A model generated the notes under the pieces. That model saw only the letters and a program-made list of their open reading frames with translations, did no database searches and was not told the origin of the DNA. Positions 30,365-33,809 of a DNA stretch of 64,000 nucleotides are shown here, in pieces (the stretch's first letter is position 1; each line of letters starts with the position of its first letter). The DNA comes from Leisingera sp. ANG59. Lineage in GTDB: Bacteria; Pseudomonadota; Alphaproteobacteria; Rhodobacterales; Rhodobacteraceae. The position numbers and the translations under genes are program-made. The DNA lies in contig NZ_WLCM01000001.1 of the NCBI RefSeq assembly GCF_013317235.1, positions 138,850-202,849 on the forward strand, read 5' to 3'.

Positions 30365-30401
30365 CGCATGCCTGTCACATCGCGTATTTATGGAAGAATT
30401 C

Positions 30402-31355
30402 ATGGATCTGAGGGCACACACGCGCAAGTACACGGAAAAGGACAACCGGCTGGCATCGCTCAGCTATTTCGGGACATTTGCGGTCTATTTCCTGTCGCTC
30501 TACCTTGCAATCACCCATGCTGACCGCTGGTATGTGATGCTGCCCGCGGGGGTGGTTTTTGCCTTTGCCGCGGTGCGGCTTTACGTGCTGCAGCACGACA
30601 CCGGCCATCACTCTCTGTTCGAGACCCGGATGCAGAACGAGATTGCCGGCCACGTGCTGTCGCCCTTCACCTTTGCCCCGTTTGAGGTGATGAAGCAGAA
30701 CCACAACCTGCATCATTCCAACATCGGCAATCTGGAGCACCGCGAGACCGGCGAGATTCACACCATGACTCTGCGGGAATGGAAGGCCGCCGGGTTCTGG
30801 GAGCGGCTGGGCTACCGGCTCTACCGCAACCCGTTTGTGCTGGTGCCGCTGGGGGCGGCCTTCACTTATTTCATCCGCTACCGCTGGCCCAAGAACACGG
30901 TGCGGTTCGGTGTGTCCGGGGTGATCCTGCACAACCTGGTGATCGTCGCCATGCTAGGCCTGCTTTATTGGGCGGCGGGGATGACCGGCCTCTGGAACTG
31001 GCTGGTGTTTTCCTTCCTTGGCGGCATGATTGGGGTGTTCCTGGTCTACCTGCAGCATAACTTCGAGGACACTTACTGGGACCGCCGCCCGGACCTGAAC
31101 CCGCAAGCGGCGGCGCTGCAGGGATCGTCCTGTTTGGATTTTGGCTGGTTCTTCGACATGGCGGTGGCAAACATAACCCTGCATGATATCCATCACTACA
31201 ACGCCCGCATTCCGTCCTACCGCTTGCGGCAATGCCATTACAGCCTGCCGCCGGAACTGGGTCTGCGGCGGATCAAGTTTCCAGAAGCAGTTCGGGCTCT
31301 GACGTTAAAGCTTTGGGATGAAGAGAAGAAATGCCTGGTGCCCTTTCCAGCATGA
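30402..31355 (+). CDS. Membrane fatty acid desaturase family protein
   Basis: 317-aa integral membrane di-iron enzyme of the fatty acid desaturase family. The three histidine boxes are present: HDTGHH (about residue 65), HNLHHSN (about 102) and HDIHHYN (about 263), with further QHNFEDTYW near 222. Four or more hydrophobic segments surround them. GGAAG sits 5 nt before the ATG at 30402; an alternative ATG is at 30390. Probable role is introducing a double bond in acyl lipids, possibly for membrane fluidity; acyl or other lipid substrate is not determined. Confidence 0.85.
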   Translation: MDLRAHTRKYTEKDNRLASLSYFGTFAVYFLSLYLAITHADRWYVMLPAGVVFAFAAVRLYVLQHDTGHHSLFETRMQNEIAGHVLSPFTFAPFEVMKQNHNLHHSNIGNLEHRETGEIHTMTLREWKAAGFWERLGYRLYRNPFVLVPLGAAFTYFIRYRWPKNTVRFGVSGVILHNLVIVAMLGLLYWAAGMTGLWNWLVFSFLGGMIGVFLVYLQHNFEDTYWDRRPDLNPQAAALQGSSCLDFGWFFDMAVANITLHDIHHYNARIPSYRLRQCHYSLPPELGLRRIKFPEAVRALTLKLWDEEKKCLVPFPA

Positions 31356-31413
31356 GCGTTTCTTGCAATGCTTGCCAGGCGTTGAGCAAAATTGAATGGG
31401 GGAATTCAGCAGC

Positions 31414-31881
31414 ATGACGGAGATTTCAGAACTGAGGGGAGTGGGGCCAGCGCTGGCCCGGATCCTTCAGGAAAACGGGGTGCAATCCGTCGAAGGGCTG
31501 GCGGGAATGGAAGAACAGCAGCTGCGCAGCATTCCGGGCATCGGCTCCAGCCGGGCGGGCCTGCTGCTGGATGCTGCCCGGGTCCATAACGGGTCCGCAG
31601 AAGCGGAGGGCGAGGATCTGAGCGCCCGGCTGGCTGCTGCCGAAACGGCACTTCAGGCGGCGGAGGAAAAAGCAGCCAAGGCTGAGGCCAAGGCCAAAAA
31701 GGCCAAACGCCAGGCTGTAGAATTGATGGAGGAATTTGCTGAGGCTAAGGTCAAGGCCAAGAAGAAGGCCAGGAAGGTCAAGGCCAAGGCTAAGAAGGCC
31801 ATCGAGAAGGAAAAGGCCAAGGCCAAGGCCATTCTTGAGGGCAACGGCTCTGGGAAGAAAAAGAAAAAGGTGAAGAAGTGA
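31414..31881 (+). CDS. Helix-hairpin-helix protein with Lys/Ala-rich histone H1-like tail
   Basis: 155-aa protein in two parts. The N-terminal 55 residues hold helix-hairpin-helix motifs: ELRGVGPALARILQENGVQSV and LRSIPGIGSSRAGLLLDAA, of the kind that grips DNA backbone. From about residue 75 the chain is a coiled-coil-prone Ala/Glu/Lys segment that turns into Lys/Ala repeats (KAKKAKRQA, KAKKKARKVKAKAKKA) and ends GKKKKKVKK, like eukaryotic H1 or bacterial H1-like tails. The DNA shows matching AAGGCCAAG-type repetition. A nucleoid-associated role is inferred. An alternative ATG is at 31396. Confidence 0.75.
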   Translation: MTEISELRGVGPALARILQENGVQSVEGLAGMEEQQLRSIPGIGSSRAGLLLDAARVHNGSAEAEGEDLSARLAAAETALQAAEEKAAKAEAKAKKAKRQAVELMEEFAEAKVKAKKKARKVKAKAKKAIEKEKAKAKAILEGNGSGKKKKKVKK

Positions 31882-31906
31882 TTTCAGGCCGCTGCTTTTA
31901 AAAAGA

Positions 31907-31931
31907 AAACCGGCGCCAATGGCGCCGGTTT
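31907..31931. terminator. Bidirectional intrinsic terminator
   Basis: AAACCGGCGCC (31907-31917) and GGCGCCGGTTT (31921-31931) form an 11-bp stem with a 3-nt loop. It sits between the converging HhH-protein gene and serS. Confidence 0.88.
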
Positions 31932-31954
31932 CTGGTTCTGGAGTGCGGTCTGGA

Positions 31955-33247
31955 TCAGACCAGCTCACCCTCGGCGGTCAGGGTCAGCTTGCCGCCCAGA
32001 TAGGGAGCAAGAGCCTCCGGCAGTTTGACCGACCCATCCGCCTGCTGGCCGTTTTCCAGCACCGCGATCAGGCAGCGCCCGACGGCCAGGCCGGAACCGT
32101 TCAGCGTGTGCACGAACTGCGGCTTGCCGCCGTCGGCAGGCTTAAAGCGCGCGTTCATCCGGCGGGCCTGGAAATCACCGCAGACCGAGACCGAGGAGAT
32201 CTCGCGGTAGGTGTTCTGGCCGGGCACCCAGACCTCGATGTCGTGGGTCTTACGGGCGCCAAAGCCCATGTCGCCGGTGCACAGCACAATGGTGCGATAG
32301 GGCAGGCCCAGGCGCTCCAGGATGTCCTCGGCGCAGCGGGTCATGCGCTCGTGCTCTTCAACGCTCTTGTCCGGATGCGTGACCGAGACCATTTCGACTT
32401 TCTCGAACTGGTGCTGGCGCAGCATGCCGGCGGTGTCCTTGCCGGCCGAACCGGCCTCGGAGCGGAAGCACTGGGTGTGGGCCACATAGCGGCGCGGCAG
32501 ATAGCTTTCCTCGACCACCAGGTTGTTCACGATATTGGTCAGCGTGACCTCAGCCGTCGGCACCAGCCACCAGCCGTCGGTGGTCTTGTAGCTGTCCTCG
32601 CCGAACTTGGGCAGCTGGCCGGTGCCATACATCATCTCTTCGCGCACCAGCACCGGGGTCCAGGTCTCGGTCAGGCCGTTCTCGTCCACATGGGTGTTGA
32701 TCATGAACTGCGCCAGCGCCCGGTGGATGCGGGCTACCGCACCGGACAGCACGACGAAACGGCTGCCCGACAGCTTGGCCGCTACCTCGAAATCCATGCC
32801 GGGTTTCACGCCTTCGATCTCGAAGTGCTCCTTGGGCTCGAAATCGAGAGCCTTCGGCTCGCCCCAGCGGCGGATTTCGACGTTGTCGTCTTCATCCTCA
32901 CCCTCCGGCACATCGTCGAATGCCAGGTTCGGGATGGTCATCAGCATGTCGTTGAGCTGCTGGTCCAGCGCCTTGGCCTCGGTATTCATGGCCGCCACTT
33001 CGGCCTTCTTCTCGGCCACCAGCGCGCGCAGGCGCTCGAATTCGGCCTCGTCGCCGCGGCCCTTGGCAGCGCCGACTTCCTTGGAGGCCTTGTTCTGTTC
33101 GGCCTGTGCGGTTTCCGCGGCCAGGATCTTAGCCCGGCGCGCCTCATCCAGCGCCAGGATCTCGGATGACACGCCCGCATCCCCGCGCCGCGCCACAGCG
33201 GCGTCGAAGGCGGCAGGATTTTCGCGGATTGCGCGGATGTCATGCAT
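31955..33247 (-). CDS. serS: Seryl-tRNA synthetase
   Basis: Class II aminoacyl-tRNA synthetase charging tRNA-Ser and tRNA-Sec. The 430-aa product starts [20 protein letters not shown]; the frame is open 15 codons further, but this start matches the family. The N-terminal coiled-coil arm occupies about residues 28-105. Class II motif 2 is seen in [20 protein letters not shown] and motif 3 in [16 protein letters not shown] near the C-terminus. Expected family length. It is read toward a shared terminator and is followed by no other gene on its strand. Confidence 0.97.
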
Positions 33248-33356
33248 GAGAGTTTCTCCTAGCGTTGGAAGATGGTTTGAATCAGTAGGCACATCCTATG
33301 ACGCAAGGGTGAACAAAGGGGAAGGGGGCGGACACCTTCCCGCCTCATGGCGGAAA

Positions 33357-33392: not shown

Positions 33393-33809
33393 TCATTCCG
33401 CTGCCATTGGCAGCATGTGCACGTGATGCCGTGGCGGCTGCATGCGGATCTCGCCGGTCAGGAAATCGGCATAGTCGAATGTCAGCTCCGTGCCTGCCGG
33501 GATGTTGGTCAGCGCCCGGCCCCAGACCCCGTCGGAAAAATCGAGGTTAGGATACATCGAATGGTTCAGGAAGCGGCCTTCGTCGCATTGCAGGATAAGG
33601 TAGCCGGGGCGGCAGGGATCCGGGAAGCTATAGCGTTCCAGAAACTCCTTCATGTGGGGTTCGACATTGTCCAGCTTGCTCTCCGGGAAGGTGGTGTCGA
33701 GCATTCTGTCATACCGCCAGACGATGTCACCCTTGGTGATTTTGTCATGGCAGAAAACGCCCAGCCCTTCGATGACCGAGGGGGCGAGATAGCAGCGCAC
33801 CATCATCAT
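33393..33809 (-). CDS. SET domain-containing protein
   Basis: 138-aa protein consisting almost only of a SET domain, the fold of protein lysine methyltransferases. Visible parts are RCYLAPSVIEGLGVFCHDKITKGDIVW (about residues 4-30), RFLNHSMYPNL (about 80, with the NHS cofactor-site motif) and GTELTFDYADF (about 105, with the YAD end of the pseudoknot). There is no Cys-rich post-SET region; the C-terminus is His/Met-rich. The start at 33809 has GAAGGAAC upstream. The substrate is unknown. Confidence 0.8.
   Translation of the reverse strand: MMMVRCYLAPSVIEGLGVFCHDKITKGDIVWRYDRMLDTTFPESKLDNVEPHMKEFLERYSFPDPCRPGYLILQCDEGRFLNHSMYPNLDFSDGVWGRALTNIPAGTELTFDYADFLTGEIRMQPPRHHVHMLPMAAE

Follow-up and report, generated by a model that had tools for sequence, protein, structure and literature searches.

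A helix-hairpin-helix protein of Leisingera with a strongly constrained lysine-rich tail, and the loss of its head in one clade

The stretch of the Leisingera sp. ANG59 genome analysed here (64,000 nucleotides, hereafter the window) contains at 31414..31881 (+) a genuine gene, retained between a fatty acid desaturase gene and serS in Leisingera and its relatives. Its 155-residue product joins a helix-hairpin-helix (HhH) head to a K/A-rich, predicted helical tail. Constraint is stronger on the tail than on the HhH head, which evolves faster and, contrary to expectation, is the half that has been lost within the genus (4/21 genomes). Our best guess, from comparison with described proteins, is that it binds DNA or another polyanion and works like AlgP, HupB or PhaH, outside those families.

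The frame begins with an ATG at 31414 and ends with a stop at 31879–31881. A second in-frame ATG lies 18 nt upstream, at 31396; a methionine is found at the 31414 position in all 16 aligned rows, although for the 15 rows other than the window's we placed the start there ourselves. The upstream neighbour encodes a fatty acid desaturase (30393..31355, +, start not fixed; Pfam FA_desaturase E 7.9e-24). Its stop is separated from the ATG by 58 nt, so that co-transcription of the two genes is possible. Downstream, serS is convergent (31955..33292, −, start not fixed; a start at 33256 gives 433 aa, and this form matches NCBIfam serS at E 3.9e-150). Between the two genes lies a 12-pair terminator-like hairpin (31906..31932, −), of a kind found at two sites in the region against a mean of 1.3 in shuffled sequence.

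The order der, desaturase, HhH/Lys-tail gene and convergent serS is observed in all 15 contig loci compared (L051–L065), der being named, like the desaturase and serS, by Pfam/NCBIfam match. Two genes, probably yajC and secD, come next in 14 of the 15; the remaining locus, L055, stops inside serS. One of these contigs (L064, JAHVJD010000002.1) is titled Nocardioides marinus; it carries Rhodobacteraceae genes in the same order, with der and secD each 95% identical to those of the window, and its label looks wrong. The whole protein was matched in 21/21 genomes of the genus at E<=0.001, and in all of them the gene, or what is left of it without the head, lies between the desaturase and serS. With the same query its own genome, searched at E<=10, yielded no match other than the protein itself.

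Beyond serS is a SET-domain gene (33396–33806, −; Pfam SET E 3.7e-11). A chlamydial SET enzyme reportedly methylates an H1-like protein. SET genes are present in 10/21 genus genomes and 10/148 family genomes, and a link with the HhH head was rejected for want of co-occurrence: the two are found together in 3 genomes (G000, G020 and G031), against an expectation of about 1.6 for totals of 24 and 10 in 148 genomes.

The head (residues 1–58; 31414..31587, +) contains the hairpins GVGPALA and IPGIGSSRA, whose GVG and GIG agree with the two-hairpin hGhG glycine pattern. It matches Pfam HHH_5 at E 2.5e-10 (41.1 bits for a cut-off of 27, residues 4–56), also passes the IMS_HHH cut-off (25.5 vs 24.4), and is modelled by AlphaFold2 as a block with pLDDT 82–89. 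An earlier reading, made from the sequence only, had described an HhH pair followed by a K/A-rich C-terminal half ending in KKKKKVKK; the HHH_5 match and the 28% lysine of the last 95 residues confirm that description. Among the 21 rows of the head profile A1, the window's included, the hairpin glycines G9 and G11 are kept in 21/21, G44 in 18/21 and G42 in 11/21; the other 10 rows have R or K at position 42. The head of the window protein has no lysine in residues 1–58 and a net charge of −2, while the mean over the 21 A1 rows is +1.3.

The folds nearest to the head, all at E > 0.001 (best 2.2e-3), include those of DNA enzymes (RAD51/RadA N-terminal domains and pol iota) and the C-terminal repeats of NusA. 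Among the 50 matches listed, the RAD51/RadA domains superpose with an rmsd of 0.9–1.6 over 52–58 columns, and NusA (1wcn, 6ib8 and some chains of larger complexes, presumed to be NusA) with 1.1–1.8 over 53–56 columns. The NusA fits are about equal to those of RAD51/RadA (1wcn TMt 0.67; 6ib8, a SuhB complex, TMt 0.74). Binding of DNA by the head is suggested by the kept hairpin glycines, yet its charge is near neutral and its nearest folds include a protein binder. The head might dock onto a protein partner as the NusA repeats do, the tail bringing that partner to nucleic acid. The proximity of 1wcn and 6ib8, the near absence of charge and the faster evolution of a head lost once within the genus are all compatible with such docking. 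The glycines of the DNA-binding pattern are nevertheless kept, G42 less often than the others, and no candidate partner emerged from the analysis. We regard protein docking as very unlikely.

The best PDB sequence match of the protein, at E 3.3e-4, is ribosomal protein L32e, which bears an HhH close to the N-terminus. This match raises an association with RNA or the ribosome, in which HhH and basic helix would contact rRNA or tRNA instead of DNA. The genome of the window also encodes an L21 in which an AK-rich linker is joined to HHH_5. This ribosomal protein points the same way, as do der and serS among the neighbours and rpsB beside the gene in five other genera. But the HhH of L21 belongs to a different subgroup (the head profile reaches it at E 3.7e-7, against 7.6e-24 for the window protein), and the neighbourhood is weak evidence since neighbours differ between loci. 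We consider this association unlikely.

The sequence after the head can be divided into four parts. A linker (residues 59–67; 31588..31614, +), with low pLDDT at 63–66, is short here and, according to the alignments, much longer in other genera. It is followed by a predicted helix of mixed E/K/A charge (residues 68–104; 31615..31725, +; net +2), then by a predicted basic helix (MEEFAEAK...AILEG, residues 105–143; 31726..31842, +; net +9) that lies within the most conserved stretch, as judged from the identity of residues 101–143. The lysine end (residues 144–155; 31843..31878, +) is modelled with low confidence and is probably disordered; it has 7 K of 12 residues and a net charge of +7, the last 95 residues as a whole reaching +15.

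No proline occurs in residues 61–155 of the window protein, where K is mixed with E. From 16 aligned rows AlphaFold2 predicts a single helix at 65–143, about 79 residues long (mean pLDDT 79.5, pTM 0.38), with pLDDT 70–91 over residues 71–140, 53 over 61–70 and low values from about 144. Because the pTM is low, the model does not define how head and helix are arranged. AlphaFold2 also tends to predict helices for A/K/E-rich sequence. The proline-free character extends to all 26 aligned rows of the 76-column helical segment (Leisingera, Tritonibacter, Phaeobacter and near relatives), and F108 is invariant in 16/16 aligned rows. The window sequence thus suggests something other than the unstructured tail of the sequence-only reading. 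The likeness to histone H1 proposed there holds for the Lys/Ala-rich composition, and it suits better the tails of other genera, which do bear prolines; in kind it is not supported for the tail of the window protein, proline-free and predicted as a continuous helix with an invariant F108. Taken together, the interpretation given in the sequence-only reading is partly supported.

The hydrophobic moment of the helical segment exceeds that of shuffles (p < 0.05) in 16/26 rows at 100 degrees and in 10/26 at 102.86 degrees. At the latter angle the window protein gives p 0.006, and the Tritonibacter, Phaeobacter and L061 rows 0.38–0.83. This angle is the heptad period, and the window's row is among those 10; a coiled coil is not claimed. 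The motif FxxAKxK was also rejected as a family-wide mark, being found in the proteins of 7/24 genera, the window's included.

The distribution of constraint along the protein is uneven. Among the 17 head-bearing genus genomes, mean amino-acid identity rises from 0.64 (residues 1–58) to 0.76 (68–100) and 0.86 (101–143). When pairs are pooled, the head has a pN/pS of 0.40 (95% bootstrap 0.31–0.49) and the tail, at residues 68–143, one of 0.18 (0.12–0.25); these are pooled pairwise ratios from pairs that are not independent, and are rough, pS being about 0.6–0.7.

Both halves are kept in 17/21 genus genomes, and the head has decayed in the other four (G151, G155, G162 and G165), where the whole-protein match begins only at query residue 58–62. 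The DNA between desaturase and tail still aligns there with hairpin 2, while hairpin 1 is unrecognisable. At two of these loci (L035 and L040) an in-frame stop separates the head remnant from the tail; at the other two (L031 and L037) a GTG is preceded by 44 and 60 open codons, which run through the hairpin 2 remnant. In 4/4 headless genomes AAGGAG followed by this GTG opens the remaining 110-codon ORF, and the GTG is the probable start. For G151 the DNA reading places a TAG six codons before the GTG, which makes the open frame 115 codons long, as against a 160-aa open frame in the whole-protein search. The headless tails remain open and have a pN/pS of 0.08 (0.03–0.15). Their mean nucleotide identity is 0.87; over the 230 nt that precede the GTG, some 28–39 of which belong to the end of the desaturase gene, it is 0.73.

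A tree built from desaturase and serS groups the four headless genomes in one clade (support 1.000), and a single loss of the head is therefore the simplest reading. When the head was sought elsewhere in these four genomes with A1 at E<=1e-4, the only matches were frames of L21 length (190–193 aa, E 1.2e-6 to 3.3e-6) and long frames (658 aa, 2.7e-5 to 3.5e-5, and in G165 572 aa, 9.2e-5); the 658-aa and 572-aa frames would be consistent with UvrC and with other proteins of repair or transcription. An internal start in all relatives was rejected, as no AGGAG-like site precedes the VNGK/VNGN/MNGQ segment in the 7 head-bearing genus rows that have it, the codon in L030 being GTC. AAGGAG with GTG was seen in the four headless genomes, and a dual-start gene is unsupported outside their clade.

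The tail, more constrained than the head and outlasting it in one clade, thus looks like the functional core of the protein, and the HhH like a dispensable targeting module. Bacterial proteins that add a lysine-rich tail to a structured DNA contact are easily read as domain plus accessory tail. This truncation by evolution runs opposite to such a reading: the head was lost and the tail kept under strong constraint. Full-length and headless sister genomes therefore offer a natural comparison of what the polybasic helix does alone.

To follow the head beyond the genus, A1 (21 seeds) was searched in 148 family genomes representing 148 genera. It gave 24 places in 24 genomes at E<=3.7e-13; the next match (5.1e-10) is an ORF resembling ribosomal protein L21. 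A lysine-rich tail (K 17–40% past residue 60) accompanies the head in 22 of the 24 genera, and the net charge of the tail is +14 to +34 in the 22 head-bearing rows of the charge comparison. Of the two others, G087 is cut by a contig end and G050 lacks the lysine tail. The G050 protein (L185), the one complete exception among the 24, combines the head with a tail that is short and acidic (K 5%, net −6). The A1 seeds were drawn from places found via the full-length protein or from the same locus, so that the presence of the tail in seed genomes is partly built in; among the four family-genome places found by A1 alone (G097, G088, G082 and G050) the tail is kept in 3/4. The sequence-only reading had looked to Rhodobacterales for relatives keeping both halves, and these were found in the Rhodobacteraceae, in the 22 genera as in the 17 Leisingera genomes. 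Orthologues without the lysine tail, which it had named as evidence against itself, amount to one of the 23 complete cases (G050), the rest keeping theirs.

The heads are not all at the same locus: 15 are at the serS/desaturase locus (G087 by the desaturase alone), 5 beside rpsB and 4 beside no neighbour tested. The site beside rpsB is a second conserved one, shared by five genera (L004, L018, L181, L183 and L184), with a HupE/UreJ_2-like gene near it in four. In a survey of the serS locus the gene is present in 9/97 regions, 6 of the 97 regions being shorter than 800 bases; the regions came from 100 genomes, without G000 (the query), G033 (no serS match) and G041 (serS at a contig end). A search of 190 genomes of the class gave matches at E<=1e-8 in three: the genome of the window, G233, which again has an HhH and a basic tail (L192; HHH_5 E 2.6e-15), and G230, whose match is inside a 512-residue open frame. 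The family is thus patchy and centred on the Rhodobacteraceae; with the head in just 24/148 genera, the protein is not a core nucleoid protein of that family. Each of the 22 other complete genera has 4–15 prolines in its tail, so that a single long helix cannot be general, and many of these tails have AKP-type linkers ahead of a lysine-rich end.

As to what the protein may do, the explanation we favour, to which we give somewhat less than an even chance, is a small nucleoid-associated protein in which the HhH would be a DNA-targeting module and the long basic alpha-helix the main contact with polyanions. The hairpins would grip the phosphate backbone independently of sequence, the basic helix would lie on or along DNA through its charge, and the two together might compact or bridge DNA; loss of the head would weaken targeting and leave the core polyanion binding. 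In its favour are the HHH_5 match, the invariant G9 and G11, the RAD51/RadA folds, the strong positive charge and constraint of the tail, its retention in the headless clade, and the non-specific DNA binding reported for the HhH of PhaH. Several observations weigh against this explanation. The head is near neutral and the protein-binding repeats of NusA fit it about as well, a K-rich helix would also suit RNA, polyphosphate or membrane, the distribution is patchy, the pTM of the helix model is low, AlphaFold2 readily draws helices for such sequence, and the tails of other genera hold prolines. For Leisingera and its nearest relatives we propose, more tentatively, that the lysine part is a conserved proline-free basic helix, rather than an unstructured tail of the H1 type, and the working part. 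The HhH would be an accessory that was dropped in one clade, where a GTG equipped with a ribosome-binding site would then allow the helix to be translated by itself. If true, the Rhodobacteraceae would possess a separate class of helical polycations that organise DNA, RNA or polyphosphate.

PhaH, reportedly a phasin of Caulobacter crescentus with an HhH (Salinas et al. 2023), suggests another role, a tether that would attach to the nucleoid through the HhH and to a polyphosphate (or PHB) granule through the basic helix, spacing granules along the chromosome like PhaH, PhaF, PhaM and AlgP. According to a review, this alphaproteobacterial protein joins a granule-binding part to a C-terminal HhH reported to bind DNA non-specifically (PMC13052382). 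AlgP is presented as an H1-like protein located on polyphosphate granules, which it spaces (PMC9239181). The NCBIfam PhaH model gives a weak match to the head (E 0.0032, profile positions 173–209), and losing the DNA-binding half while keeping the granule half would be tolerable. The whole protein, however, scores only 17.7 bits against the PhaH model NF045508 (cut-off 250), its tail matched no phasin model of Pfam or NCBIfam, no pha or ppk gene is among the neighbours examined, and the amphipathicity of the tail is weak and uneven across the 26 rows. We regard a granule tether as unlikely, yet as a serious rival, like the RNA-linked role. No match to NF045508 above its cut-off was found in the 21 genus genomes (0/21). 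The genome of the window does have a PhaH-type C-terminal HhH elsewhere (contig C21, 205001–205339, −; E 3.2e-22), in a 395-aa open frame that is probably, on our assumption, NuoE with an HhH extension; long frames of this type (376–508 aa) are found in 20/21 genus genomes.

We return to the polyanion-binding explanation to compare the protein with known systems. Against NCBIfam the whole protein reaches no named family above cut-off and against Pfam it matches HhH models only, and no description of an HhH/Lys-tail family was found in the open-access literature. The sequence-only reading, which knew of no well described member, agrees with that literature, but analogues of the design have been described: AlgP, PhaF, PhaM, PhaH and HupB. 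The HhH fold is shared with the N-terminal domain of RAD51/RadA and the C-terminal repeats of NusA, but these are parts of large proteins, and we know of no basic helical tail of this kind on them. The L21 encoded in the genome of the window (L197 201–761, −, contig C57; Pfam L21 E 5e-37, HHH_5 E 3.3e-7) has its HHH_5 at the C-terminus. L21 with an HhH extension (PRK12278 group, NF008915) resembles our protein in having an AK-rich segment adjoining HHH_5; it differs in its reverse order, linker then C-terminal HhH, in being a ribosomal protein and in its HhH subgroup.

Closer in kind are the proteins that join a structured part to a polycation. PhaH is likewise alphaproteobacterial and pairs an HhH with a second part; its HhH is C-terminal and of another subgroup, and its other half binds PHB granules (PMC13052382). 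AlgP of Pseudomonas aeruginosa is described with an N-terminal part predicted to be helical and a long, lysine/alanine-rich C-terminal part for which DNA binding is reported, and the window protein resembles AlgP and the related PhaF tail in this layout; their tails are KPAA repeats, proline-rich and predicted disordered, whereas that of the window is proline-free, mixed K/E and predicted helical, and the description cited mentions no HhH (PMC9239181). Relative to the H1-like AlgP/PhaF/Hc2 type, the window protein has the Lys/Ala-rich tail (28% K) and lacks a proline-containing, repetitive and disordered one, a feature to which the 22 other complete genera, with 4–15 prolines in their tails, come nearer. 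HupB/HupS and actinobacterial TopA with its lysine repeats also combine a structured DNA-binding part with a lysine-rich C-terminal tail, their head being HU or a topoisomerase and not an HhH (PMC7398561). What raises the interest of the present protein is the natural experiment of head loss. The HhH/Lys-tail family is without a name and uncharacterised, and in kind it belongs with AlgP, PhaF, PhaH and HupB.
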